DNA of 64,000 nucleotides, from positions 930,001 through 994,000 of the forward strand of contig NZ_CP107819.1 in assembly GCF_036346295.1 (NCBI RefSeq). The letters are read 5' to 3'. Position 1 is the stretch's first letter. Each line of letters begins with the position of its first letter. The DNA comes from Streptomyces sp. NBC_00536 (GTDB lineage Bacteria > Actinomycetota > Actinomycetes > Streptomycetales > Streptomycetaceae). Made by a program: the position numbers and the translations under genes. This document shows, piece after piece, positions 1-13,431 of this stretch. The notes beneath the pieces are model-generated. The model ran no database searches, was not told where the DNA came from, and saw only the letters and a program-made list of their open reading frames with translations.

Positions 1-458
1 TGCGCAGCATCGAGCCCGTGGTCGCCGCCCGCTGGGAAGCCATCGCCCGGTGCCAGGGGAGCACGCCGGTGGACTGGCTGGCGCACGAGGACCTCGTCGA
101 CGCGCGGACGCTGCGCGGGCACCTGCGGGTCGGGCGCTACGCCCGTGGGATCGGCCTCACCCGGCATCCCGGCGCCGATGCCCCGCTGATGGAGCTGCTG
201 CTCGCCTACACCCCGGTCCTGCTGTGGCCGCACACGGCGGAGGGCTTCCCCGAGGAGCGCCACGCCAGCCTCGACCAGGACTGGTGGGCCATGCCGGGCG
301 CCCTGGCGCGCGCCTACCGCGAGCGCTGGCTCGGCGAGGGCCGCGCGGACCTCGCCGACCTCCGCGCCGTCTGGGACGACGAGGACTGGCTGCGCTTCTG
401 CCGCCTCCTGTGGACGGCGGCTCCCCGTATCCGCGACCGATCCGAGGGGACCCCATGA
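1..458 (+). CDS. C-terminal part of a probable VMAP (vWA-MoxR-associated) protein, cut by window edge
   Basis: The reading frame is open from base 3 leftwards, so only the last ~151 residues are visible. They are rich in Trp, Leu and Arg with short acidic patches such as VLLWPH and AVWDDEDW. Its stop overlaps the start of a MoxR ATPase by four bases (ATGA), so the two are translationally coupled. In actinobacterial VMAP ternary systems the order is VMAP, MoxR, then a vWA/SAV_2336 protein, and the next two genes match this; the assignment rests mainly on that context plus general resemblance to VMAP C-terminal domains. The N-terminal effector or protease part lies outside the window, so the full domain make-up is unknown. 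Confidence 0.5.
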   Translation, partial: RSIEPVVAARWEAIARCQGSTPVDWLAHEDLVDARTLRGHLRVGRYARGIGLTRHPGADAPLMELLLAYTPVLLWPHTAEGFPEERHASLDQDWWAMPGALARAYRERWLGEGRADLADLRAVWDDEDWLRFCRLLWTAAPRIRDRSEGTP

Positions 459-1408
459 CCTGGGACGCGTACTACCGGGGCGACGGCGTGCCGAGGCCCG
501 CCGCCGCACTGCCCGAACCGCCACCGTGGCGGACCTTCCCCATCCCGTCGTCGGCCGAGGTGTTCCGGCCGCCGGAGGGGCTGTCCGACGCCGTGAACGC
601 GGCCCTGGCGCTGCGCCGCCCCCTGCTGATCACCGGCGGGCCGGGCACCGGGAAGTCCACGGTGATCGAGCAGGTGGCCGCGGAGCTGGCGCTGGGGCCC
701 GTACTGCGCTGGCACGTCACCTCGCGCAGCTCGCTCGCGGACGCCCTGTACCGCTACGACGCGCTCGGCCGCATCCACGCGCACCGGCTCCAGCAGGAGA
801 AGGCGCGGGCGGGCGGTGCGGCGGGCGTGGACGACATCGCCGCCTTCCTGACCCTCGGGCCCCTGGGCACGGCGCTGTTGCCGTCGCCGCGCCCCCGCGC
901 GCTGCTCGTCGACGAGATCGACAAGGCCGACCTGGACCTTCCCGGAGACCTCCTCGACGTCCTGGAACGCGGGGAGTTCCGGGTGACCGAGCTGATGCGC
1001 GAGGAGCAGGACGAGGCGTGGGTGCGGGTCTGGGAGAGCCCGGAGCGGCACCTGGTGCAGCACGGGCACGTGCAGTGCACCGAGTTCCCGTTCATCGTGA
1101 TGACGAGCAACGGCGAACAGGAGCTGCCCGCGCCCTTCTTGCGGCGCTGCGTGCGCTACACCATGCCCAAGCCGACCGCCGAGCTGATCCGTGACGTCGT
1201 ACGCGGCCACCTGTGCCTGGAGGTCGGCGAGGCGGGACCGGCGGCCGAGCTGGTGGACGACTTCGTACGGCGCGTGGCGGCGGGCGAGAGCGTGGCGATC
1301 GACCAACTGCTGGGCACCCTGCACCTCTTGGACGGTCCGGCCCGTTCCCCGGGCGCCGAGCGGGAGAAACTGATCGCCCTGCTCATGAGGGACCTCTCGG
1401 GTGCCTGA
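455..1408 (+). CDS. MoxR-type AAA+ ATPase of a VMAP conflict system
   Basis: A 317-residue AAA+ ATPase. Walker A GGPGTGKST is at residues 61-69, Walker B LLVDEID at 150-156, and a sensor-1 TSN followed by an LRRC arginine-finger region lies near 215-232. MoxR ATPases act as NTP-driven chaperone-like switches working with vWA-domain partners. The ATG overlaps the upstream stop by four bases and the downstream GTG lies eight bases inside this gene, so all three products should be made in linked amounts. This context (VMAP fragment before, vWA/TIR protein after) makes it the NTPase of the conflict system rather than a housekeeping MoxR of the respiratory or methanol type. Confidence 0.88.
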   Translation: MTWDAYYRGDGVPRPAAALPEPPPWRTFPIPSSAEVFRPPEGLSDAVNAALALRRPLLITGGPGTGKSTVIEQVAAELALGPVLRWHVTSRSSLADALYRYDALGRIHAHRLQQEKARAGGAAGVDDIAAFLTLGPLGTALLPSPRPRALLVDEIDKADLDLPGDLLDVLERGEFRVTELMREEQDEAWVRVWESPERHLVQHGHVQCTEFPFIVMTSNGEQELPAPFLRRCVRYTMPKPTAELIRDVVRGHLCLEVGEAGPAAELVDDFVRRVAAGESVAIDQLLGTLHLLDGPARSPGAEREKLIALLMRDLSGA

Positions 1409-4268
1409 GTCCCCCGCGCCGCCGCCGCGGCCCCCGGGCGAGCCGGTGCGGGCCGGGGGCGGCGGCCCGCTGGCGGCCGTCGTCCCGGCCCTGCACGGGC
1501 TCGGCCGGGAGCTGGACGGGCTCGCGATCGCCGAGCTGCTCTGGCTGGCCGCGCTGCGGCGGGAGCGGGCAACTGCCGCCGGGGACACGGGAGTCGCGGA
1601 GGGCGCGGGCTCCCCCGGCGCCGCCGATCCGCGGGAGCGGATCGGGCCGTGGCGCCCGGGCCGCGATGTGTACGGTCCGTCGGCGCCGGGCGGCGAGGCG
1701 CTCCCCGCCCGGGAGGTCTCCGTGCCCCGGGCCGCCGCGCTCCCGCGCGCCCGGGAGATCGCCCGCGCCCTGCGGCCGCTGCGCCGGGCCTGGACCGCGG
1801 GGCGCAGTACGCGCCTGGACATCGGGGCGACGGTCGCGGCGTACGCCCGCAGCGGGGAACTGCTGCCCGCGTTCCGCCCGGCCCCGGAACGCTGGTTCGA
1901 CCTGACCGTGGTCCTCGACCGGTCGCCGACCATGGCCGTGTGGGAGGACGCGGGCGCCGAGCTGGTGAAGGTGCTGGCCTCGACGGGTGCTTTCCGTACG
2001 CTGCGGGTCCGCGAGACCGGCTCCTGGGGCCCGGGCCCCGGCACGGGTGCGGGCCCGGTCCCGGGCGGCCTCGGGGGCACCGGCGCGCGGTCGGCGCGGC
2101 CGCGGCGGCTGGTGCTCGTCTTCTCGGACTGCGTGTCCGGCGCCGGGGGCGGGGGCGGGGGCGGGGGCGCGTTCTGGGACCGGCTGCACGGCTGGGCCGC
2201 GGCCACCCCCACCGTGCTGGTCAACCCGCTCCCGCCACGGATCTGGCGGCATTCCGGCCTCGACCTCCCGGCGGTGCGGGTCACCCCGCCCGGCGCGCCG
2301 GGCGCGCGCAACTCCGCGCTGCGGTTCACCGCCCACACCCTGGCGCAGCAGCTGTACCCGCCGCCGGAGGGCCTCCGGGACGCCTGGCTCCCGCTGCCCG
2401 TCGTCGGCCTGTCGCCGCGCGCCGTCTCCCGCTGGGCCCGCACCCTGATGCGCGGGGACCCGGAGGGCTGCGAGGCGGTGCTGGTGCGCGGGCCGGGCCT
2501 GCCCGGGCCCGCCCCCGCCCCCGCGGAGCCGCCCGCCGACGCCGGGCAGCTGGCCGAGGCGTTCCTGCACCGGGCGTCGACGCCCGCCGTCCGGCTCGCG
2601 GTGCTCTGCTCCTCGTACGCGCGACTGCACACCGGCCTCCTCCATGTGATCCGGCAGGAACTCGTCCCGGAGGCGACGGCGGCCGACCTGGCCGAAGTGG
2701 TCGTCGGCGGGCTGGTCTTCATCGAAACGCCGGACGGCGCAGTGGCAGACGGCGGGACCGCGGACGGCGGGCCGGTGCTGAGCTTCCGGGAGGGCGTGCG
2801 CGAGCGGCTGGCGCCGAGGCTCGGCGCGCGCGACGCGCTGCGCACCCGGGAGGCGGTGAGCCGGTTCATCGCGGGGCACGCCGGAGCCCCGGGCGGCTTC
2901 CCGGCCCTGGTCCCCGACCCGGCGGGGGCCGCGGGGATCTCCGCCGCGGCGGTGCCCTTCGCCCGGGCGTCGGACCGTACGCTCCAGGGCCTGGAAGCGG
3001 GGCCCCGACCGCGACTGGCGGCCCCGTCCGGGCAACCGCGACCGGAGCCGCCGCCCGCCGTGTCGGGCCGGGTGCGCGCTCCGGCCGACGACCGGCCCTA
3101 CTTCTTCCTCAGTTACGCCCACACGCCCCGCCTGGGCACGACCGGGCCGGACGTGAACGAGTCGGTCGAGCGCTTCTTCCGCGACCTGTGTGATGAGGTG
3201 ATGGCCCTGGCGGACCTGCCCGAGGGGGCCGCCGCGGGGTTCATGGACCGGCAGATCGGGCTCGGTGAGGGGTGGTCGGACCGGCTGGGCCACGTACTGG
3301 CCACCTGCCGGGTGTTCGTCCCGCTCTACTCGCCCCGCTACTTCGCCAGCGAGACGTGCGGCAAGGAGTGGTTCGCGTTCGCCCAGCGCTCCCTCTACGA
3401 GCGTGCACGCGGGGTCGAACCGGTCGAGGCGATCGTGCCCGCGCTCTGGGTTCTGACCCTGCCCGAACAGATGCCGCGGGTCGCCCGGCGCGTGCAGTTC
3501 GACTCCCGCCCCTTCGGGGAGGACTACACGAGCGAAGGCCTGTACGCGCTGATGAGGCTCCGGGCGTTCGCCCAGGAATACCGCCAGGCGGTCCACGCGC
3601 TGGCGACGAGGATCGTCGAAGTGGGCGAGAGCGCGCCCCTCCCTTCCCGCCGGACCGTCGACTACCTGAACGTCCCAAGCGCCTTCCGGGCCGCCACCCG
3701 GTCCGAGGAGAGCCTGCGGATCGCCGTCGTCGCGCCGACGCTGCGGAACCTGCCCGAAGGGCGCGATCCGCGCTACTACGGCGACACCCCGGACGACTGG
3801 AACCCGTACCACCCCGAATCCGCGCGGCCCCTCGCGGACGTGGCCACCGGCCTCGCCTTCCAGCTCAACGAGCAGGTGGACGTCTCCACCCTCGCCGACG
3901 AGGTCACACGGGTCGTGCGCGGCGTCGCCTCCAGTGGACCGCTGATCCTGCTCGTGGACGCCTGGGCGCTGCGGGTGCCGGAACTGCGGGCCGGGCTGGC
4001 CGCCCTGGACGCGGCCCGGGAACCGGGGACGATCGTCCTGTGCGCCCGGCACCGCCTGGACATGCAGGTCAGCCTGTACTCGCTGGAGAGCGCCTTCCCC
4101 GGACTGACGCACCGGTCGGGCGTCGCCCTCGGCCGGGCCGCCCACGGGCTGACCACCCTGGAGGCCTTCGGCGCCGCGATGCCGCGGGCCGTGGAGCACG
4201 CCTACGCCGACTACCTGGGTCAGCAGGGCGACGTCCCGCCGGGGGCGCCTCACACGCCGCGGGGCTGA
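1401..4268 (+). CDS. SAV_2336-type vWA-like / TIR / FxsC fusion protein
   Basis: A 955-residue protein starting at GTG 1401. Residues ~20-400 match the SAV_2336 N-terminal type: a helical start, then a vWA-like fold whose first metal-site motif reads DRSPT (Asp173) and a second acidic strand LVFSDC. Residues ~567-750 are a TIR-like domain, opening PYFFLSYAH with Ser571 and carrying a Glu in CGKEW (Glu656) where NAD-cleaving TIRs place the catalytic Glu. Residues ~753-955 resemble the C-terminal part of FxsC, the TIR-like protein found beside FxsA/FxsB peptide cassettes. No short FxSxx or FxLD-type precursor gene is visible here. Likely the effector or sensor arm of the VMAP/MoxR operon; NADase activity is inferred, not shown. 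Confidence 0.75.
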   Translation: MPESPAPPPRPPGEPVRAGGGGPLAAVVPALHGLGRELDGLAIAELLWLAALRRERATAAGDTGVAEGAGSPGAADPRERIGPWRPGRDVYGPSAPGGEALPAREVSVPRAAALPRAREIARALRPLRRAWTAGRSTRLDIGATVAAYARSGELLPAFRPAPERWFDLTVVLDRSPTMAVWEDAGAELVKVLASTGAFRTLRVRETGSWGPGPGTGAGPVPGGLGGTGARSARPRRLVLVFSDCVSGAGGGGGGGGAFWDRLHGWAAATPTVLVNPLPPRIWRHSGLDLPAVRVTPPGAPGARNSALRFTAHTLAQQLYPPPEGLRDAWLPLPVVGLSPRAVSRWARTLMRGDPEGCEAVLVRGPGLPGPAPAPAEPPADAGQLAEAFLHRASTPAVRLAVLCSSYARLHTGLLHVIRQELVPEATAADLAEVVVGGLVFIETPDGAVADGGTADGGPVLSFREGVRERLAPRLGARDALRTREAVSRFIAGHAGAPGGFPALVPDPAGAAGISAAAVPFARASDRTLQGLEAGPRPRLAAPSGQPRPEPPPAVSGRVRAPADDRPYFFLSYAHTPRLGTTGPDVNESVERFFRDLCDEVMALADLPEGAAAGFMDRQIGLGEGWSDRLGHVLATCRVFVPLYSPRYFASETCGKEWFAFAQRSLYERARGVEPVEAIVPALWVLTLPEQMPRVARRVQFDSRPFGEDYTSEGLYALMRLRAFAQEYRQAVHALATRIVEVGESAPLPSRRTVDYLNVPSAFRAATRSEESLRIAVVAPTLRNLPEGRDPRYYGDTPDDWNPYHPESARPLADVATGLAFQLNEQVDVSTLADEVTRVVRGVASSGPLILLVDAWALRVPELRAGLAALDAAREPGTIVLCARHRLDMQVSLYSLESAFPGLTHRSGVALGRAAHGLTTLEAFGAAMPRAVEHAYADYLGQQGDVPPGAPHTPRG
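2145..2168 (+). repeat. (GGGGGC)x4 hexamer tract inside the vWA-like domain
   Basis: Four consecutive GGGGGC units encode eight glycines within the TIR fusion gene. The tract satisfies a G-quadruplex pattern (four runs of five G with one-base loops). A gain or loss of a whole unit keeps the frame, but single-base slippage would truncate the TIR domain. Confidence 0.85.
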
Positions 4269-4329
4269 TTCCTCCGCCATGCGGAACACTGGCCCCAGAA
4301 TCGTCCGCCCACCCCACCGGGAGATGCGC

Positions 4330-5334
4330 ATGAGGATGCTGATCAACAGTCCGGAGACCGTCGTCGCCGACGCGCTGCGGGGGATGGCAGCCGCGCATCC
4401 CGAGCTGGACGTGGACGTGGAGCGGCGGATCGTCGTACGCCGGGACGTGCGCGGGGGTGGCCGGGTCGGGGTGGTGTCCGGCGGCGGGTCCGGGCACGAG
4501 CCGCTGCACGCCGGGTTCGTGGGGTACGGCATGCTGTCGGCGGCCTGCCCCGGAGAGGTGTTCACCTCGCCCGTGCCCGATCAGATGCTGCGGGCCGCGA
4601 CCGCCGTGGACAGCGGGCAGGGGGTGCTGTTCATCCTCAAGAACTACACGGGGGACGTCCTCAACTTCGAGATGGCCGCCGAACTCGCCGACGAGGACGG
4701 CATCCGGATCGAGCGGGTGCTGGTCAACGACGACGTCGCGGTCACCGACAGCCTCCACACGGCCGGACGGCGCGGCACCGGCGCCACCCTCTTCGTCGAG
4801 AAGATCGCCGGGGCGGCCGCCGAGGAAGGCGCGCCGCTGGACCGGGTCGCGGCCCTCGCCCGGCGCGTGAACGCCGCCTCCCGCAGCTTCGGGGTCGCGC
4901 TCGGCCCGTGCACCACCCCCGCCAAGGGCAGCCCCACCTTCGACCTGCCGGAGGGCGAGCTGGAACTGGGCATCGGCATCCACGGCGAGCCGGGCCGGGA
5001 GCGGCGCCCGATGATGACCGCGCGGGAGATCGCGGAGGTCGCCGTGGGGGCCGTCCTGCAGGAACTGGACGAGGTGGGTCCGGCCGACGGACCGGTCCTG
5101 GCCCTGGTCAACGGGATGGGCGCGACCCCGCTGCTGGAGCTGTACGGGTTCCACGCCGAGGTCGCGCGGGTGCTCGCGGAGCGGGGCGTTCCCGTGGCGC
5201 GCGCCCTGGTCGGGAACTACGTCACCGCGCTGGACATGGCCGGGTGTTCGGTGACCCTGTGCCGCGCCGACGACGAGCTGCTGCGGCTGTGGGACGCGCC
5301 CGTGCAGACCACCGCGCTGCGCTGGGGCCGCTGA
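4330..5334 (+). CDS. dhaK: Dihydroxyacetone kinase subunit DhaK
   Basis: A 334-residue dihydroxyacetone-binding subunit of the PEP-dependent kinase. The substrate forms a hemiaminal with a conserved His in GIHGEPG; here that is His218, the same number as in E. coli DhaK. The N-terminal GGGSGHEP loop is also present. The start at ATG 4330 is preferred over ATG 4324 and 4336 because GGGAG lies six bases upstream. It begins a dhaK-dhaL-dhaM operon; DhaK presents dihydroxyacetone and DhaL-ADP transfers the phosphate, giving dihydroxyacetone phosphate for glycolysis. The gene is full length with all key residues. Confidence 0.95.
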   Translation: MRMLINSPETVVADALRGMAAAHPELDVDVERRIVVRRDVRGGGRVGVVSGGGSGHEPLHAGFVGYGMLSAACPGEVFTSPVPDQMLRAATAVDSGQGVLFILKNYTGDVLNFEMAAELADEDGIRIERVLVNDDVAVTDSLHTAGRRGTGATLFVEKIAGAAAEEGAPLDRVAALARRVNAASRSFGVALGPCTTPAKGSPTFDLPEGELELGIGIHGEPGRERRPMMTAREIAEVAVGAVLQELDEVGPADGPVLALVNGMGATPLLELYGFHAEVARVLAERGVPVARALVGNYVTALDMAGCSVTLCRADDELLRLWDAPVQTTALRWGR

Positions 5335-5409
5335 CCAACGGGGGGTGGCCGACGGGAAGTAGGCTGGGGAGCGGGCAGGGTGACGGGTGATCAACTGCGA
5401 GGAGATCCG

Positions 5410-6054
5410 GTGCGGGACGCGGTGCGGGACGCGGAGTTCTTCGGGCGCTGGATGGCCGCCGTGGCCGTCTCGGTGGAGCGCGAGGCGGACCGGTTGACGG
5501 AGCTGGACTCGCCCATCGGCGACGCCGACCACGGGAGCAATCTGCTGCGCGGTTTCCTGGCGGTACGGGCCGCACTCGACGCCGGGGTGCCCCCGTCGCC
5601 CGGCGCCGTGCTCCAGCTGGCCGGGCGGACCCTGATCGGCGCGGTGGGCGGCGCCTCCGGCCCGCTCTACGGAACCCTGCTGCGGCGCACCGGGAAGGAA
5701 CTCGGCGACGCCCCGGAGGTCTCCGACGACGCGCTGCGCAAGGCCCTGTACGCGGGGGTGGGCGCGGTCGCCCAGCTGGGCGGGGCCGCGCCGGGCGACA
5801 AGACCATGCTGGACGCACTGGTTCCGGGGGTCGCGGCGCTGAGTACGTCGTACCGCGCGGCGGCGGAGGCGGCGCTGAACGGGGCGCTGGCGACCGTACC
5901 GCTCCAGGCCCGCAAGGGACGGGCGAGCTACCTGGGCGAGCGCAGCATCGGACACCAGGACCCGGGGGCCACCTCGGCGGCCCTGCTGCTCGGAGCGCTC
6001 GCCGACACGGCGGACAGCGCCGATGCGGCCGCTCCGGCGGAGGACGGGGAGTGA
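5410..6054 (+). CDS. dhaL: Dihydroxyacetone kinase ADP-binding subunit DhaL
   Basis: A 214-residue all-helical subunit that holds ADP and Mg as a permanent cofactor and passes phosphate from DhaM to dihydroxyacetone on DhaK. The metal-binding aspartates are visible as Asp33, Asp38 and Asp40 in the segment DSPIGDADHG, followed later by GGASGP. GTG 5410 has GAGGAG five bases upstream and is chosen over GTG 5380, which lacks a good ribosome-binding site. The stop overlaps the dhaM start, so the two are coupled. Confidence 0.93.
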   Translation: MRDAVRDAEFFGRWMAAVAVSVEREADRLTELDSPIGDADHGSNLLRGFLAVRAALDAGVPPSPGAVLQLAGRTLIGAVGGASGPLYGTLLRRTGKELGDAPEVSDDALRKALYAGVGAVAQLGGAAPGDKTMLDALVPGVAALSTSYRAAAEAALNGALATVPLQARKGRASYLGERSIGHQDPGATSAALLLGALADTADSADAAAPAEDGE

Positions 6055-6479
6055 GCGGGACCGGAAGCGTGGAGGAGGGCGCGGCGCTCGTCGGGATCGT
6101 GCTGGTCTCACACAGCGCGGCGGTCGCCCGGTCCGTGTCGGAGCTGGCGTCCGCGATGGTGGCGGGAGGTCCCGCCGCCCTGGTGGCCGTCGCGGGTGGC
6201 ACGCCCGACGGTGCGCTGGGCACGAGCGCCGAGCTGATCGTGGCGGCGGCCCGCTCGGTGGACCGGGGCGCGGGGGTGGCACTGATCGCGGACCTCGGCA
6301 GTTCGGTGCTGACCGTCAAGTCGCTCCTGCTGGACGAGGAACTGCCGCCCGGATCGCGCCTGCTCGACGCGCCGTTCCTGGAGGGCGCGGTGGCCGCGGT
6401 GGTGACCGCCTCGACCGGCGCCCCGCTGGACGCCGTGGCCCTGGCGGCGGGCGAGGCCTACGCCTACCGGAAGGTCTGA
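6051..6479 (+). CDS. dhaM: PTS-type phosphotransferase DhaM (EIIA domain only)
   Basis: A 142-residue mannose-EIIA-like domain. The phospho-accepting residue is His21 in LVSHSAAVA. It receives phosphate from HPr and hands it to ADP on DhaL. E. coli DhaM carries extra HPr and EI-like domains; this one is the EIIA domain alone, as in many Gram-positive bacteria, so it must depend on the general PTS proteins EI and HPr encoded elsewhere. GTG 6051 overlaps the dhaL stop. Confidence 0.92.
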   Translation: MSGTGSVEEGAALVGIVLVSHSAAVARSVSELASAMVAGGPAALVAVAGGTPDGALGTSAELIVAAARSVDRGAGVALIADLGSSVLTVKSLLLDEELPPGSRLLDAPFLEGAVAAVVTASTGAPLDAVALAAGEAYAYRKV

Positions 6480-6516
6480 CCGGCCCCGCCGCCCTTCCGC
6501 CCCCCGGGCCCACCGT

Positions 6517-6906
6517 TCAGCGGCCCCGCAGGTTCTCGATGTCCCGGCGTTCGCGCTTGGTCGGACGGCCCGCGCCCCGCTCGCGGATGCCGACGACGGC
6601 CGCCTCGACGGGGGTCGGCGGGGGCGGGCTGTTGTCGGTCAGGCACTCGGCCGCGACCGGTGCGCCGACCCGCTTCGTCACGGCCCGCCGGACCACGACG
6701 ATCCGCTCGCGCCCCGCGTGGAAGAGCCGCACCTCGTCGCCCGGGCCGACCGGCTGGGCCGGTTTGGCCCGCTCGCCGTTGACCTTCACGTGTCCCGCCC
6801 GGCAGGCGGCGGCCGCGAGCGAGCGGGTCTTGGTCAGCCGTACCGACCAGATCCAGCTGTCCACCCGCGCCGTTCCCGTTGCCGTTGCCGTTCCCTCATC
6901 AGCCAT
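6517..6906 (-). CDS. S4-domain RNA-binding protein (Hsp15/HslR-like)
   Basis: A 129-residue protein whose residues ~14-60 form an S4 RNA-binding fold (RVDSWIWSVRL, then ACRAGHVKVNGERAKP). In the Hsp15 family it recognises free 50S subunits with stalled nascent chains. The C-terminal tail is basic and proline-rich, ending RPTKRERRDIENLRGR. It converges with dhaM and diverges from the molybdate regulator across a ~156-base spacer. Short S4 proteins of this size are common in actinobacteria; the ribosome-rescue role is by family only. Confidence 0.85.
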   Translation of the reverse strand: MADEGTATATGTARVDSWIWSVRLTKTRSLAAAACRAGHVKVNGERAKPAQPVGPGDEVRLFHAGRERIVVVRRAVTKRVGAPVAAECLTDNSPPPPTPVEAAVVGIRERGAGRPTKRERRDIENLRGR

Positions 6907-6979
6907 GCCCCGACTCTATCCATCGGGGCTCCCGCAACCGGGGCTCCGGCCACCGGGAAATGGAATCGACTTTGGCGGA

Positions 6980-7061
6980 TGCGACAAAGGCCACGGCACC
7001 TGCCATGTACATCATCCCAATGGAATTGCAAATGCGGCAGATGTGCCCCTACCTTGTCGCA
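6980..7061. promoter_or_regulatory. Inverted repeat flanking the molybdate-regulator promoter region
   Basis: TGCGACAA at 6980-6987 and TTGTCGCA at 7054-7061 are exact inverted copies 66 bases apart, the second directly before the ATG at 7063. AATGGAAT is also repeated near 6959 and 7019. This may be an autoregulatory site for the HTH-TOBE protein, but no binding evidence exists. Confidence 0.35.
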
Positions 7062-7062
7062 C

Positions 7063-7458
7063 ATGCAGTCCTACACCATCGGCCAGGCGGCACGCCTGCT
7101 CGGCGTCAGCCCCGACACCGCCCGTCGCTGGGCCGATGCCGGCCGGGTCTCGACCCATCGGGACGAGAGCGGCCGTCGGCTCATCGACGGCCGGGCCCTC
7201 GCCGCCTTCTCCGTGGAAGTGGGCCAGGGCGCCCACACCGAGGACGGTGAGCCGTACACCTCGGCCCGCAACGCCTTCCCCGGGATCGTCACCGCCGTCA
7301 AGCTCGGCGACGTGGCCGCCCAGGTCGAGATCCAGGCGGGTCCCCACCGCCTCGTCTCCCTGCTCACCCGCGAGGCCGTCGAGGAACTGGGCCTGGAGGT
7401 CGGCATGCAGGCCACCGCCCGCGTGAAGTCGACCAGCGTCCACATAGACCGCGCCTAG
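7063..7458 (+). CDS. HTH-TOBE molybdate-responsive regulator
   Basis: A 131-residue one-component regulator. Residues 1-50 are a MerR/excisionase-type helix-turn-helix (YTIGQAARLLGVSPDTARRW); residues ~62-130 are a TOBE/Mop domain (NAFPGIVTAVKLGDVAAQVEIQ then LEVGMQATARVKSTSVHI) of the kind that binds molybdate or tungstate. It sits 136 bases before modA in the same direction, so it is the likely regulator of the uptake genes. It is a compact alternative to E. coli ModE, which has a winged HTH and two Mop domains. Proteins of this design are widespread beside actinobacterial modABC genes. Confidence 0.88.
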   Translation: MQSYTIGQAARLLGVSPDTARRWADAGRVSTHRDESGRRLIDGRALAAFSVEVGQGAHTEDGEPYTSARNAFPGIVTAVKLGDVAAQVEIQAGPHRLVSLLTREAVEELGLEVGMQATARVKSTSVHIDRA

Positions 7459-7594
7459 CCGCACCCGGTACGGACCGCCCCACCGGTCGGCCCGTACCTC
7501 CGTACCGCTCGTACGCACCACCTGTACGCCCGTCCCCACCCGCTCCGCCCGTCACCGGCGCGGGTCCTTGCCAGACCCGAGGAGCCGTATCCAC

Positions 7595-8422
7595 ATGTTC
7601 TCCACCAGCATCAACCGCCGCCGCGCGGCCGCCGCCGTCCTGGGCGCCGCCCTGCTCGTCCCGCTGACCGCCTGCGGCAAGGACGACGCGAAGAAGCCGG
7701 CCGCCGACGGCGCGAGCGCCGCCGCGTCCGCCTCCCCGTCGGCCGCCGCGCCGAAGGCCGCCAGCCTGACGGTCCTCGCCGCCTCCTCGCTCACCGACGT
7801 CTTCAAGACGGCCGGCGCCGCGTACGAGAAGGCCAACCCCGGTACGAAGATCACCTTCTCCTTCGCCGGTTCGCAGGAGCTGGCCGCCCAGGTCAAGCAG
7901 GGCGCCCCGGCCGACGCCCTGGTCACCGCCGACACCAAGACCATGGACGGGCTCAGCGCCGAGGCCAACGCGCCCAAGGTCATCGCGAAGAACCGCCTGG
8001 TCATCGCGGCGGGCAAGGGCAACCCCTTCAAGATCGGGTCCCTCAAGGACCTCGCCAACACCAAGATCAAGGTGGTCCTCGCGGCCCCCGAGGTCCCGGT
8101 CGGCCGCTACAGCAAGCAGATCCTCGACGCCCAGAAGATCGAGGTGAAGCCGGTCTCCCAGGAGCCGAACGTCCGCGCCGTGCTGAGCAAGGTCGAGCTG
8201 GGCGAAGCCGACGCCGGTCTCGTCTACAAGACGGACTCCATCAAGTCCGGGGACAAGGTCACGACCGTCGACATCCCGGACGAGCAGAACGCCGTCGCGT
8301 CCTACCCCGCCGCCTCCCTCAAGGGCTCCAAGAACGCCGAGGCCGCGGCCGCGTTCGTGGCGTGGCTGAGCACCCCCGAGGCACAGAAGATCCTGCAGGA
8401 CGCCGGTTTCCAGCAGGCGTAG
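7595..8422 (+). CDS. modA: Molybdate ABC transporter substrate-binding lipoprotein ModA
   Basis: A 275-residue lipoprotein. The signal peptide ends in lipobox LTAC with Cys27 as the lipidated residue; a charged and Ala-rich linker follows, then the periplasmic-type binding fold starting LTVLAASSLTDVFK, a hallmark of ModA whose Ser residues bind the oxyanion. The motifs TADTKTMDGL and LVYKTDS are also typical. ATG 7595 is preceded by GAGGAG ten bases upstream. It lies between the HTH-TOBE regulator and fused modBC, completing a molybdate uptake module. Confidence 0.94.
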   Translation: MFSTSINRRRAAAAVLGAALLVPLTACGKDDAKKPAADGASAAASASPSAAAPKAASLTVLAASSLTDVFKTAGAAYEKANPGTKITFSFAGSQELAAQVKQGAPADALVTADTKTMDGLSAEANAPKVIAKNRLVIAAGKGNPFKIGSLKDLANTKIKVVLAAPEVPVGRYSKQILDAQKIEVKPVSQEPNVRAVLSKVELGEADAGLVYKTDSIKSGDKVTTVDIPDEQNAVASYPAASLKGSKNAEAAAAFVAWLSTPEAQKILQDAGFQQA

Positions 8423-8430
8423 CCCACGGC

Positions 8431-8448
8431 GCCCCGCTCCGGCGGGGC
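8431..8448 (+). terminator. Short GC hairpin between modA and modBC
   Basis: GCCCCGC at 8431-8437 pairs with GCGGGGC at 8442-8448 around a TCCG loop, nine bases after the modA stop. There is no T-run. It may partly end transcription or protect the modA end of the message. Confidence 0.45.
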
Positions 8449-8576
8449 ACCACGGCGGGTTGAGGAGGAGAGGGACTGCCTGGTCCGGGGGGAACAGGCA
8501 GCCCCCTCCTCCTTTCCGGCGTCCACGTCCACCTCCACGTCCCGAGCGGGCACAAGAGCCGGAGCAGGCAGAGCAG

Positions 8577-10601
8577 ATGGCCATATCCCGAAGCCGCCGC
8601 GGCGGCCCCGCCGACCGTGACGGCACCCGTACCCCCACGGGTACGCGCGCCCGCACCGGTACCCGCACCCGGCCGCCGTTCGCCCTCGCGCTGCCCGCGC
8701 TGCTCGCCGTCGCCTTCCTGTTCCTCCCGCTCCTCGGCATCCTCGTGCGCACCCAGTGGAGCCGACTGGGCACGCACCTCACCACGCCGGGCGTGGTGGA
8801 GGCGCTCAAGCTCTCCCTCTACGTCTCGTTCTGGGCGCTCGGGCTCTCCCTCCTCCTCGGGGTGCCGCTGGCCTGGCTGCTAGCCCGGGTGCGGTTCCCC
8901 GGGAAGCCCGTCGTCCGCTCCCTCGTGCTGCTGCCGATGGTGCTCCCGCCGACCGTGGGCGGTGTCGCCCTGCTGCTCGGCTTCGGGCGGCGCGGACTGC
9001 TCGGCCCCTGGCTGGAGGGCACCTTCGGCATCACCTTCCCCTTCCACACCTCGGGCGCGGTCATCGCCGCGACCTTCGTCGCGATGCCGTTCCTGGTGAT
9101 CAGCCTGGAGGGGGCGCTCGGCGGCCTCAAGCAGAGCTACGAGGAGACCGCCTCCTCCCTCGGGGCCTCGCCGGTCCGGGTGTTCTTCACGGTCACGCTG
9201 CCCATGGTGGCCCCCGGCCTGATCGCCGGAGCCGCGCTGACCTGGGCCCGGGCCCTCGGTGAGTTCGGCGCGACGATCACCTTCGCGGGCAACCTGCCCG
9301 GCACCACCCAAACCCTCCCGCTCCAGGTCTACCTGCTGCTCCAGGACCAGCCCGAGGCGGCCACCTCGCTGTCGCTGCTGCTGCTCGCGATCGCCATGGC
9401 CGTACTGATCGGGCTGCGCGGACGGTGGACCGGAGCCCCGCTCTCCGCCGACCGTACGGAGCCCCCCGGCGCCACCGCCGACACCACCGGCCCGGGCTCC
9501 GCGACCGCTCCCGCACCCGCTCCCGACGGGCCCGGCGCAGCCCCCACCCCCTCGAAGGCCACCGATCCCTGGCCGCTGCACGCCACCGTCACCGGCTTCA
9601 ACGAACTGACCCTGGACGCGGAACCCGGCACCACCATCGCCGTCGTCGGCGAGAACGGCGCCGGCAAGACCACCCTCCTGCGCGCCCTCCTCGGCCTCAC
9701 CCCCCGCGCCCACGCCGCATTGAAGCTGGGCGACCTCGACGTCACCACCCTGCCCCCGCACAAACGCCAGGTCGCCTGGGTCCCCCAGGACGGCGCCCTC
9801 TTCCCCCACCAAACCGCCCTCGCCAACACCGCCTACGGACTGCGCGCCCGCGGAGTTCCACGCACCGAGGCCCGCGCCGAGGCACAGGCCTGGCTCGACC
9901 GGCTCGGCGTCGGCCACCTCGCCCACCGCAAGCCCGCCCAGCTCTCCGGCGGCCAGGCCCAGCGCGTCGCTCTGGCCCGCGCCCTGGCCGCCCGCCCCCG
10001 CCTGCTCCTCCTCGACGAACCCCTCGCCGCCCTCGACCAGACCACCCGCGCGCGGGTGCGGCACACCCTGCGCACCCATCTCGCCGGCTTCGGCGGGGTC
10101 TGCCTGATCGTCACCCACGACCCCGTCGAAGCCGTCTCCCTCGCCGACCGGGTCCTCGTCCTGGCCGACGGCCGCACCCTCCAGGACGCCACCCCCGCCG
10201 AAGTCACCCGCCACCCACGCTCCCCGTGGGTGGCCCGCATGCTCGGCCGCAACGCCTGGGCGGGGACCGCGTCAGCAGAGGGTCTCGCGCTGCCCGGCGG
10301 CGGTCGGCTGGTGGTCGCGGACGCCCTGCCGGACGGCGCCCCGGCGCTCGCGATCATCGCCCCCGAGGCCGTCTCGGTCCACCGGGACCGGCCCGGCGGC
10401 AGCCCCCGCAACGTGTGGCCCGGCACCGTCCGCGAGATCACCGCCGCCGGCAGCAGGCTCCGGATCCTGATCGCCTCGCCCGAGGCCCCCGACCTGGTCG
10501 CCGAGATCACCCCGCAGGCCGCCGCCGAACTGGGCCTCGCCGACGGCGCCCCCGTGTGGACCAGCGTCAAGGCGACCGAGGTCACCCTCGTGGCCCTCTG
10601 A
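8577..10601 (+). CDS. modBC: Fused molybdate permease-ATPase ModBC
   Basis: A 674-residue fusion of permease and ATPase. Residues ~35-280 form the ModB permease with about five membrane helices and the EAA loop (ETASSLGASPVRVFFTVTLP). A Pro/Ala-rich linker follows. Residues ~340-560 are the ModC ATPase with Walker A GENGAGKTT (~358), signature LSGGQ (~456) and Walker B LLLLDEP. The C-terminal ~100 residues look like a TOBE domain (WPGTVREITAAGSRLRI). Two copies would make the complete transporter. ATG 8577 is chosen because the preceding frame is Pro/Arg-rich and GGAG lies upstream. It overlaps the convergent glycosidase gene by 20 bases. Confidence 0.92.
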   Translation: MAISRSRRGGPADRDGTRTPTGTRARTGTRTRPPFALALPALLAVAFLFLPLLGILVRTQWSRLGTHLTTPGVVEALKLSLYVSFWALGLSLLLGVPLAWLLARVRFPGKPVVRSLVLLPMVLPPTVGGVALLLGFGRRGLLGPWLEGTFGITFPFHTSGAVIAATFVAMPFLVISLEGALGGLKQSYEETASSLGASPVRVFFTVTLPMVAPGLIAGAALTWARALGEFGATITFAGNLPGTTQTLPLQVYLLLQDQPEAATSLSLLLLAIAMAVLIGLRGRWTGAPLSADRTEPPGATADTTGPGSATAPAPAPDGPGAAPTPSKATDPWPLHATVTGFNELTLDAEPGTTIAVVGENGAGKTTLLRALLGLTPRAHAALKLGDLDVTTLPPHKRQVAWVPQDGALFPHQTALANTAYGLRARGVPRTEARAEAQAWLDRLGVGHLAHRKPAQLSGGQAQRVALARALAARPRLLLLDEPLAALDQTTRARVRHTLRTHLAGFGGVCLIVTHDPVEAVSLADRVLVLADGRTLQDATPAEVTRHPRSPWVARMLGRNAWAGTASAEGLALPGGGRLVVADALPDGAPALAIIAPEAVSVHRDRPGGSPRNVWPGTVREITAAGSRLRILIASPEAPDLVAEITPQAAAELGLADGAPVWTSVKATEVTLVAL

Positions 10602-13431
10602 TCCCCGCCGCCTGCCCGGCCACGGGCGCGGGAGCCACGACGGCGACGGGCGCGGGCGCGGGCCCCGGACGCGGTTCCACGGAGACCCACTCGTGCTCCC
10701 GTCCCACGCTCCCGCCCCCGCCCGCGGCGCCGTCGGTCCCCACCAGGACCCAGCCGGAGCGTCCCGCCGTCACCGACAGCACGCCCTCGGCCCGGCCCAC
10801 CCCGGTCACGGGTCCGCCGAGGGTCACCACCGCGGCGCCCTTGCCGGTGGCCCGCCGGAACTCTGCGAGCAGCCGCTCCCGCAGCGCGGCCTCCTTCCGG
10901 TCGACGGCTGACGGCCCGGCCCCGTCGTCCTGTACGACGACCAGCGCGCCGGTGGCGGCCTCCCGGCCCGCCGCGGCGATCCCCTCGCGCAGCGCCCGCA
11001 GCCGCTCCAGCCCGCCCCCGTCGAGGGTCCGGTGAGCGCCGTCGAGGCGCAGGAACCGTACGCCCCGGTGCACGGACGACGAGGGCGCGTCGCCGGAGGC
11101 GAGCACCAGCTCGGGGCGTTCGGCGCGGATCTCCTCCCGGGCCCGGCGCAGGTCCGCCGCCGACTGACCGCCGGCCAGCAGCGCGAACCGCCAGGGGCGG
11201 GCCCGTACTTCGGCGGGCGTCGCCGCGAGGGCCGGGTCACGGACCACGGGGACGGGCGGCGCCGCAGCGGCCTGCGGGCCCTGCGCGGTCAGGGTGTCCA
11301 GCACCAGCGTGCCCGGGCGCGGACCGGCGCTCGCCGAGAGCCGGTCTAGGGCGAGCGGGCGCTCGGCCAACGCCGGTACGGGCAGGGTGATCCGGCGCCA
11401 GCCCTTCCAGTCGACTACGGGCCCGCGCAGCACCACCCGCTCACCGTCCCCCTGGCGCAGCCGGGCCTCGACCCGGCCGCCGGAGCCGTCGCCCTCGACC
11501 CAGAGGGCGAGGGACCGTGCCAGGTCCGGCAGCGGTACGGGCCGCGGCGGCTCCGCGGCAGCCGCCGCAGCCCGGAGCGGGGCTGGCCGCGGCTCCCGTC
11601 CGCGCCCGGCGGTGACCGTGAGGCGCAGGCCGGTCCCGGTGTGCCCGGGGGCCGCGCTCGCGCCCGGCCCGCGCCACCGCTCCGCGTCGCTCAGGTCCGC
11701 CAGGCCCTCCTCCACCAGGCCGACCCCCACGGCGAGTTCGGTGGTCACGGCCGCGGCACCGGGCGGTGCGACCGTGGCCCGGATCCGCCCCGTGGCCCGC
11801 GGCACGAGCGCGGTCATCGTGAAGCCGCCGCGCCCGTCCTCGCCGACCCGCCAGCGCGTACGGTCGTACTCCCACCGCACGTCACGGCCCTCGACCGGGG
11901 CGGCCCGGCCCTGTGCGTCGAGACCGGTGAGCCCGAAGGCGCCCTTCTCGGCGGGGTCCGCGAGGCCGAGCCGGCGTGTGCTCGGCCGGATGCCGGTGAG
12001 CGGGCCGAGCACGTCCAGGTGGAGCGCTCCCCCGGCTTCCGCGCGGCGCGCGCGCACGGACGCGCTCCCGGGGCGCACTCCGTGGAAGACCCCGCCGGAA
12101 TCCACCCGGCCGGATCCGCCCGGGTCCACCGACCACTGGGGGCCGTCCGCGGCGGAGCCGGGAGCCACCGGGCCGAGGGTGGCGTCGTAGCCGGTGGCGG
12201 TGAGAGCACGGGTCAGGCCCGGGAAGACCCCGGTGGCGCCGCCTAGTGCTTCGACGCGGTAACCGACGGCACGGCCGGAGCCGGTGGGGACGGTGAGCAC
12301 CAGCCCGTTGGCGACCTTGCGCGGGCTCCCGTCGGACGGGGAGTTCTCCAGGTCGAGGGCGGTGGTCCCGCTGCGTCCGGCGAGCAGGGTGGTGGAACCG
12401 CCGCCGTCGAGGTTGAGGGCGTCGTGCGCCCCGAGGCCGTGCATCAGCCGCCCGAGCCCGGTGAGGGTGAGGCCTCCGCTGTCGCGCCGGCGGCCGTCGA
12501 CGGTGACGACGCGGAGCGCGCGGCCGTCCCGGGAGAGGCCCACCGCGGTGCGCGGGGCCGCGGTGTCGTTCGGTTCGCCCTCGTGGTCCTGCGGTACTCC
12601 GGCCACCACCAGGGCCGCGCGCCCGCCGAGGGCGGACACCAGGGGCGCACCGCCGTCGCCGCCCCGGAGCCGCGCCGAGAGGGACACCGGGTCCCCCGAG
12701 CGCAGGGCCGCGACCCGGGCCGCCGCCCGGCCCCGGCCGACCAGCACGGTGACGCCGGGTGCGGGCGGTGTGCCACGCGCGGGCGAACGTACCGCCGTGA
12801 CCCGCCCGTCCCGTACGTCGGCTTCGGCGGCCGGGCCCGGTCCGGGGGCCGGGAGGGGGCCCCAGGTCCAGTCGGCGGTGTAGGCGAAGTACCCCTCGGC
12901 GGGCGGCCGGGCGGTGTTGTACCCGGCGAGCGGGCGGGGACCGCCGGGCAGGGTGACGCTGCCGTCGAGCCCGAGGGTCAGTACCCGGCCCGCGCCGTCG
13001 GCGCCGAAGCCGACGGCGGCTCCCGCGCCCGGGGCGGGAGCGTGCAGCAGGCGGCCGCCGCGGACGCCGGGCCCGAGGGGGGCGCCCGTGGCCCCGATGT
13101 CGAAGAAGTCCCCGTTGACGGCCGCGGCCACCCGGCGGCCCGGGCCCGCGGGGTGGCGGGCCGCGGCGTCGGCGACGGTCGCCGGGCCGTCCCCGCCCAG
13201 GTACTCGGCCCGTACGCCGGGGGCGCCCAGGTCGACGGCGAGTTCGTCGACGCGCAGCCAGCGGTCGCGCTCCAGGCGGTCGTAGGACTCGAGCCGGATG
13301 CCGGGGGCGAGCGGGCGACTGGTCCGGGCGGTCTCGGTGCCGTCATCGGCATCGGCGGCCGCGGTGGGGGCGGGGCCCAGCAGAACGGCCGTGGCGAGAA
13401 GGAGCGTCAGCAGCGGGCGGTGTGTGGACAC
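10582..13431 (-). CDS. Secreted phosphodiester glycosidase with degenerate C-terminal phosphoesterase-like region
   Basis: A 949-residue exported protein: signal peptide at 1-25, then a phosphodiester glycosidase (NAGPA-like) domain to ~385 with NGDFF at 106-110 and NLDGGGS at 340-346, motifs of the family that removes GlcNAc from phosphodiesters. The middle (~390-720) holds Ig-like or lectin-like beta regions. The end (~750-920) resembles a metallophosphoesterase fold (FALLAGGQSAADL, LVLASGDAPS) but its metal ligands look lost. The start is GTG with a weak ribosome-binding site. The substrate is unknown; wall teichoic or capsule-like phosphodiesters are possible. Confidence 0.8.
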   Translation of the reverse strand: MSTHRPLLTLLLATAVLLGPAPTAAADADDGTETARTSRPLAPGIRLESYDRLERDRWLRVDELAVDLGAPGVRAEYLGGDGPATVADAAARHPAGPGRRVAAAVNGDFFDIGATGAPLGPGVRGGRLLHAPAPGAGAAVGFGADGAGRVLTLGLDGSVTLPGGPRPLAGYNTARPPAEGYFAYTADWTWGPLPAPGPGPAAEADVRDGRVTAVRSPARGTPPAPGVTVLVGRGRAAARVAALRSGDPVSLSARLRGGDGGAPLVSALGGRAALVVAGVPQDHEGEPNDTAAPRTAVGLSRDGRALRVVTVDGRRRDSGGLTLTGLGRLMHGLGAHDALNLDGGGSTTLLAGRSGTTALDLENSPSDGSPRKVANGLVLTVPTGSGRAVGYRVEALGGATGVFPGLTRALTATGYDATLGPVAPGSAADGPQWSVDPGGSGRVDSGGVFHGVRPGSASVRARRAEAGGALHLDVLGPLTGIRPSTRRLGLADPAEKGAFGLTGLDAQGRAAPVEGRDVRWEYDRTRWRVGEDGRGGFTMTALVPRATGRIRATVAPPGAAAVTTELAVGVGLVEEGLADLSDAERWRGPGASAAPGHTGTGLRLTVTAGRGREPRPAPLRAAAAAAEPPRPVPLPDLARSLALWVEGDGSGGRVEARLRQGDGERVVLRGPVVDWKGWRRITLPVPALAERPLALDRLSASAGPRPGTLVLDTLTAQGPQAAAAPPVPVVRDPALAATPAEVRARPWRFALLAGGQSAADLRRAREEIRAERPELVLASGDAPSSSVHRGVRFLRLDGAHRTLDGGGLERLRALREGIAAAGREAATGALVVVQDDGAGPSAVDRKEAALRERLLAEFRRATGKGAAVVTLGGPVTGVGRAEGVLSVTAGRSGWVLVGTDGAAGGGGSVGREHEWVSVEPRPGPAPAPVAVVAPAPVAGQAAGIRGPRG

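Follow-up and report, generated by a model that had tools for sequence, protein, structure and literature searches.

Known systems and the locus

The closest described counterparts of the locus analyzed here are the caspase-subtype VMAP ternary conflict systems, for which the sections consulted of Kaur, Burroughs, Iyer and Aravind (eLife 2020, PMC7159879) give a VMAP > MoxR > vWA gene order, a caspase on the VMAP protein, an adjoining alpha/beta-hydrolase and a variable C-terminal effector on the vWA protein, with TIR domains among the effectors and actinobacteria among the carriers. For VMAP systems, the literature searched offered predictions but no experiments, and no role of FxsC, a protein of the Fxs peptide cassettes, was found described in it. 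In the current study, we analyzed a stretch of 64,000 nucleotides of Streptomyces sp. NBC_00536 (contig NZ_CP107819.1, positions 930,001 to 994,000; hereafter the window), which begins inside a four-gene operon on the + strand, alpha/beta-hydrolase > VMAP > MoxR > vWA-TIR-FxsC, that is alike in all these respects. With a probability of roughly 0.6, we read this operon as a caspase-type VMAP ternary conflict system in which the TIR-FxsC module is an exchangeable effector cartridge originating from Fxs cassettes. This reading builds on observed gene content and order, domain identity, conserved active-site residues, effector swapping and repeated exchange with the resident cassette: related bacteria have repeatedly taken the TIR module from the separate Fxs peptide cassette of the same genome.

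The four-gene operon and its proteins

Extension of the window to the left (genome C1:918001-936000, locus L009), as advised by the first-pass annotation made from the window alone, revealed the complete VMAP gene, coding for 690 aa with a VMAP-M2 domain, and a hydrolase gene upstream of it. The features are:

Genome C1:927382-928389, + strand: alpha/beta-hydrolase gene, 335 aa, outside the window, to its left
Genome C1:928386-930458, + strand: complete VMAP gene, 690 aa, with caspase-like domain, VMAP-M2 and a possibly VMAP-C-like end
Window 1..458 (open frame 3-458), + strand: 3' end of the VMAP gene, inside which the window begins
Window 455..1408, + strand: MoxR-type AAA+ ATPase, 317 aa
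Window 1401..4268, + strand: vWA (SAV_2336)-TIR-FxsC fusion, 955 aa
Window 1668..2885, + strand: SAV_2336_NTERM / vWA region, residues 90-495, 308 bits, over cut-off
Window 2997..3095, + strand: variable linker, residues 533-565, mostly of low model confidence
Window 3096..3629, + strand: FxsC N-terminal TIR domain, residues 566-743, FxsC_Nterm 214 bits, over cut-off
Window 3366..3368, + strand: codon of Glu656, predicted catalytic residue, invariant in 66/66 aligned sequences
Window 3714..4253, + strand: FxsC C-terminal domain, residues 772-951, alpha/beta fold, FxsC_Cterm 143 bits, over cut-off

The VMAP-MoxR-vWA triad proposed earlier was confirmed by profiles and by the gene order, which on one strand is that of the VMAP ternary system. 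The overlaps of 4 and 8 bases reported for the three genes in the window agree with the frames 3-458, 455-1408 and 1401-4268 (4 bases for VMAP/MoxR, 8 for MoxR/vWA), and the hydrolase/VMAP junction also overlaps by 4 bases: VMAP starts with a GTG (genome C1:928386), which runs into the stop of the hydrolase gene. Overlaps of this kind may fix the stoichiometry of the products, as suggested by the first-pass annotation, whose interpretation is supported in part. In 12 chosen TIR-FxsC loci, tblastn recovered hydrolase, VMAP and vWA in all 12 and MoxR in 11 (not in L165) within the flanks examined, but the upstream 691-aa and GAF-PucR genes and the dihydroxyacetone kinase gene DhaK, which is next downstream in the window from about 4324 (Dak1 E 1e-125), were found in none of the 12 within these flanks; the unit therefore consists of these four genes.

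The VMAP-M2 profile matched the VMAP protein with 197 bits (E 4e-58), and a VMAP-M domain is present in 37/37 aligned VMAPs. The caspase_w_EACC1 profile reached E 4.9e-10 and 39 bits, below its cut-off of 140, and PF20028 (VMAP-C) did not reach E 0.1 on this protein, the C-terminus of which is mixed alpha/beta in the predicted structure; among the matches listed, PF20028 hit one of the 37 aligned VMAPs (P0153, 46% identical over 97%). The alpha/beta-hydrolase, with Pfam scores slightly below cut-off, adjoins VMAP, and such a gene lies beside the caspase in 40/40 caspase loci. The MoxR protein carries Walker A (GGPGTGKS) and Walker B (VDEID) motifs; of the N-terminal motifs, counted in 40 homologues, PsWRxa (here PPWRTF) occurs in 34, and WxhapG was matched in 39, only in a loosened form devised here. 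The switch of the system probably lies in the caspase domain and the hydrolase, neither of which is visible from the window alone.

In the fusion protein, the vWA component (SAV_2336_NTERM) comes first and bears TIR-FxsC as its C-terminal effector. The full first gene holds the VMAP domain that the first-pass annotation had expected, and its claim of TIR/FxsC homology in residues 567-955 of the fusion was borne out by the FxsC_Nterm and FxsC_Cterm matches (214 and 143 bits), with the TIR_2 profile at 25 bits (E 2.7e-5), under its cut-off of 28. The joining of vWA and TIR-FxsC in one polypeptide also stood, not as a singular arrangement, the fusion being common. Like Glu656, Ser571-Tyr572-Ala573 is invariant in 66/66 aligned sequences, in which the linker varies from 9 to 109 residues. 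The best fold matches of the TIR model are the TIRs of SPARTA and AbTir, both of which are NADases.

Several other loci touch on these proteins. The window's genome holds a second VMAP system (L010, C1:5498001-5512000, 4295-13081) with trypsin-VMAP-C, MoxR and a vWA protein with a weak TPR match, followed by a 79-aa open reading frame ending in FDSGVD (FxSxx type) and a radical-SAM gene, and a third SAV_2336/vWA protein at C1:1392023-1393453 (L272) in an open frame of 1483 aa. The VMAP encoded at L124 (G049, 4061-9977) combines caspase and VMAP-C domains with an EAD2-like one below cut-off, and adjoins a vWA-TIR protein in which the TIR resembles FxsC and no FxsC C-terminal domain was matched. 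The same genome has an equal-scoring caspase-VMAP relative near both chromosome ends on opposite strands (G049:C1:11321 and 10663808), probably in terminal inverted repeats. In L193 and L194 (G088, G138), a caspase domain like that of VMAP lies beside the hydrolase gene, and the 11.5 kb examined contain no match to VMAP, MoxR or vWA; this pair may act alone. P0113 and P0115, single proteins matching the vWA query together with PF19956 (EAD2), PF19916 (which we take to be VMAP-M0) and PF20028 (VMAP-C) among the matches listed, are possible vWA-VMAP fusions.

Exchange of the TIR-FxsC module with resident Fxs cassettes

The link of FxsC with Fxs peptide cassettes assumed by the first-pass annotation held up in 90 standalone FxsC loci (87 distinct): an FxsB relative is present in 85, an FxsT relative in 86 and both in 82; of the eight without both, seven lie at contig ends and the eighth is L255. 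The link proved deeper than supposed, as relatives exchange modules with the resident cassette, although such exchange is not recent in the window's own genome. The cassette of this genome lies at C1:1.84 Mb (FxsBH, FxsC, FxsT, then SLATT), with FxsA matches at 5.51 Mb and, below cut-off, at 1.84 Mb. Within the 18 kb around the operon (L009), neither an FxsB or FxsT relative nor an FxsA match was found.

The descent of the TIR-FxsC module differs from that of its operon. In a quick tree built from VMAP + MoxR + vWA (41 loci), nine TIR-FxsC systems, including that of the window and, on a long branch, L165, form one clade with support of 100 (SH-aLRT), and further TIR-FxsC systems fall in three other positions. 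The module tree (67 rows, 15 labelled fused) requires nine changes between fused and standalone, at least seven of them forced by well supported branches, and a larger quick tree (81 rows) ten, at least eight of them forced; both carry long-branch warnings, mostly on fused rows. Constraining the modules of the nine clade members together was rejected (AU p 1.05e-28), as was constraining those of the core sisters sk2.1 and rh34 (p 0.007), the groups having been chosen after the trees had been seen.

When 16 fused copies were ranked against 119 standalone FxsC copies, the standalone copy of the same genome came first in five genomes (G209, sk2.1, fuscichromogenes, rh34, G379) and within the top nine in 12, with lower ranks in G129 (20), the window's genome (71), G098 (80) and F-2580 (96, of 118-119). 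The margin is large in sk2.1 (93.1 vs 88.0%), fuscichromogenes (90.5 vs 76.0) and G379 (95.6 vs 90.3), and the observed sum of log ranks was reached in none of 20,000 genome-label permutations, which ignore kinship. The identities between sk2.1 and rh34 bear on this relatedness: their cores are 83% identical, their cassettes 85% and their fused modules 68%, the modules being 88% (sk2.1) and 77% (rh34) identical to their own cassettes. Compared in 60-base steps, the DNA of these two fusions is 67-95% identical across the vWA part once the first steps are passed, and identity in the linker is 51-61%. The sk2.1 module is 77-100% identical to its own cassette (mostly 88 or more), falling in the C-terminal tail, and that of rh34 is a patchwork of 65-100%. 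Identical-base runs between fused and own cassette copies reach 262 in G379, 143 in sk2.1 and 108 in fuscichromogenes, each beating every other genome's copy; another genome's copy shares a longer run in 11/16 genomes and an equal one in rh34.

Gene conversion cannot be distinguished from repeated capture in every case: the patchwork in rh34 speaks for conversion, and G379, together with the separate core lineages, for new capture. In G379, a trypsin-type VMAP system with Trypco1 (L253, 3078-9757) has a vWA-TIR-FxsC 95.6% DNA-identical to its own cassette FxsC, an independent, probably recent capture. In G209, the fused system of L165, which lacks a MoxR match and in which the vWA has diverged, has an FxsC module 87% DNA-identical to the cassette copy, and is possibly decayed. 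The window's module is 50% identical to its own cassette protein and 56% to the F-2580 module though the cores are 77% identical, so that this cartridge has stayed in place long enough to diverge while retaining its active-site residues.

The system is patchy, in at least 38/392 genomes. Standalone FxsC occurs in 11/12 genomes with a fused copy (the exception being G022), one of which, G379, has a trypsin-type VMAP, compared with 11/24 genomes in which the VMAP system has another effector (Fisher p 0.011; 10/24 and p 0.005 leaving out one weak match) and 123/380 of all other genomes (p 4.8e-5). These statistics ignore kinship, count as negative the genomes absent from the 135 listed, and use a draw of 392 genomes that seems to be that of the 38/392 count minus the window's own genome. 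ISL-98 (L047), which is not part of this draw, carries a fused copy but no standalone FxsC. Effector swapping among relatives extends to a NaeI-type restriction enzyme and helicases.

Proposed mechanism and alternative explanations

The operon of this soil bacterium is probably anti-viral, with the TIR module as its presumed killer part. The middle and C-terminal part of VMAP, with the MoxR-vWA chaperone pair, would keep the system off until it senses an invader, probably a phage. The hydrolase and the caspase-like peptidase would go into action next, possibly with proteolysis as the trigger, and the TIR domain, freed or clustered, would degrade NAD, so that the infected hyphal compartment would be stopped or killed. 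The TIR would thus be a suicide effector gated by the caspase and MoxR. In this reading, the cartridge stems from Fxs cassettes and in many relatives has been re-copied from that of the same genome; because this re-copying is repeated, fused and cassette FxsC may need the same partner or ligand, possibly the FxSxx peptide. More tentatively, and in our view rather doubtfully, the vWA-fused TIR and the cassette could form one two-part immune circuit, in which a modified FxSxx peptide (or FxsT) binds FxsC, the fused copy must match its own cassette, and conversion or capture tunes the effector to a self-made peptide signal.

Several observations weigh against this conflict-system reading. PADLOC returned no specific model for the operon, the linkers show neither arginine enrichment (11.7% vs 10.5% overall) nor a conserved cleavage site, and by Foldseek alone the TIR model has no match in the Protein Data Bank at E <= 0.001 (best 2.6e-3, a plant TIR). 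For the window's module, the copy in its own cassette comes only 71st of 119 in similarity, two of the five first-rank cases (G209, rh34) lead by under 0.5 points, and the permutation takes no account of species relatedness. The exchange could well be functionally meaningless, at odds only somewhat short of even, if similar stretches of one genome recombine by chance and any TIR would do: fused and same-genome copies are 66-96% DNA-identical, similar enough for recombination, and the window's lineage lacks recent exchange. The near-constant presence of standalone FxsC in fused carriers speaks against it, though this is confounded by kinship and partly reflects the need for a donor.

The consulted sections of Kaur et al. 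(2020, PMC7159879) report many vWA-fused enzymes as inactive, among them caspase, trypsin, cyclase, kinase and MinD/ParA effectors, and propose a scaffold or decoy role for many such domains. That TIR-FxsC is one of these and not an NADase would fit the TIR_2 score under cut-off, and is unlikely given that Glu656 and Ser571-Tyr572-Ala573 are invariant although relatives' modules are as little as 45% identical. The fold matches to the NADase TIRs of SPARTA and AbTir point the same way. A role in hyphal development or stress signalling instead of defence seems less likely still: nearly all organisms with VMAP systems are multicellular bacteria (694/716 in the consulted part of PMC7159879), no phage test of them was found in the literature searched and the FxSxx peptide may be a self-signal, but the patchy presence and the effector swapping suit conflict better. 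An ordinary MoxR-vWA chaperone inserting a metal or cofactor, as described for pairs such as NorQ/NorD in the part of PMC9976466 consulted, is highly improbable, since VMAP, caspase and TIR parts are present and none of the three flanking genes tested is kept in relatives.

Comparison with known systems

The module of the operon has the same TIR + FxsC C-terminal arrangement as the Fxs (FxSxx-COOH) peptide cassette with FxsB, FxsC and FxsT, but its FxsC is joined to vWA and the surrounding 18 kb lack matches to FxsB, FxsT and FxsA. With SPARTA and other TIR NADase defence systems, it has in common the TIR fold and the conserved Glu, known here from sequence and model; the trigger is different, and none of the four genes codes for an Argonaute or a STAND ATPase. 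The consulted sections of Kaur et al. (PMC7159879) do not name FxsC as a fused module and trace the origin of vWA TIRs to AP-ATPase-fused TIRs; unlike in that account, the module here is the FxsC of Fxs cassettes. Repeated replacement of a vWA effector by the same-genome cassette FxsC ties both loci together, and module swaps between genomes would be expected to break function if the FxSxx peptide or FxsT is a ligand of FxsC. Overall, the system is of a known kind, and what sets it apart, not found described in the literature searched, is its effector, an Fxs module exchanged in relatives with the cassette of the same genome. A modular effector here keeps pace with another locus instead of with the operon that encodes it.
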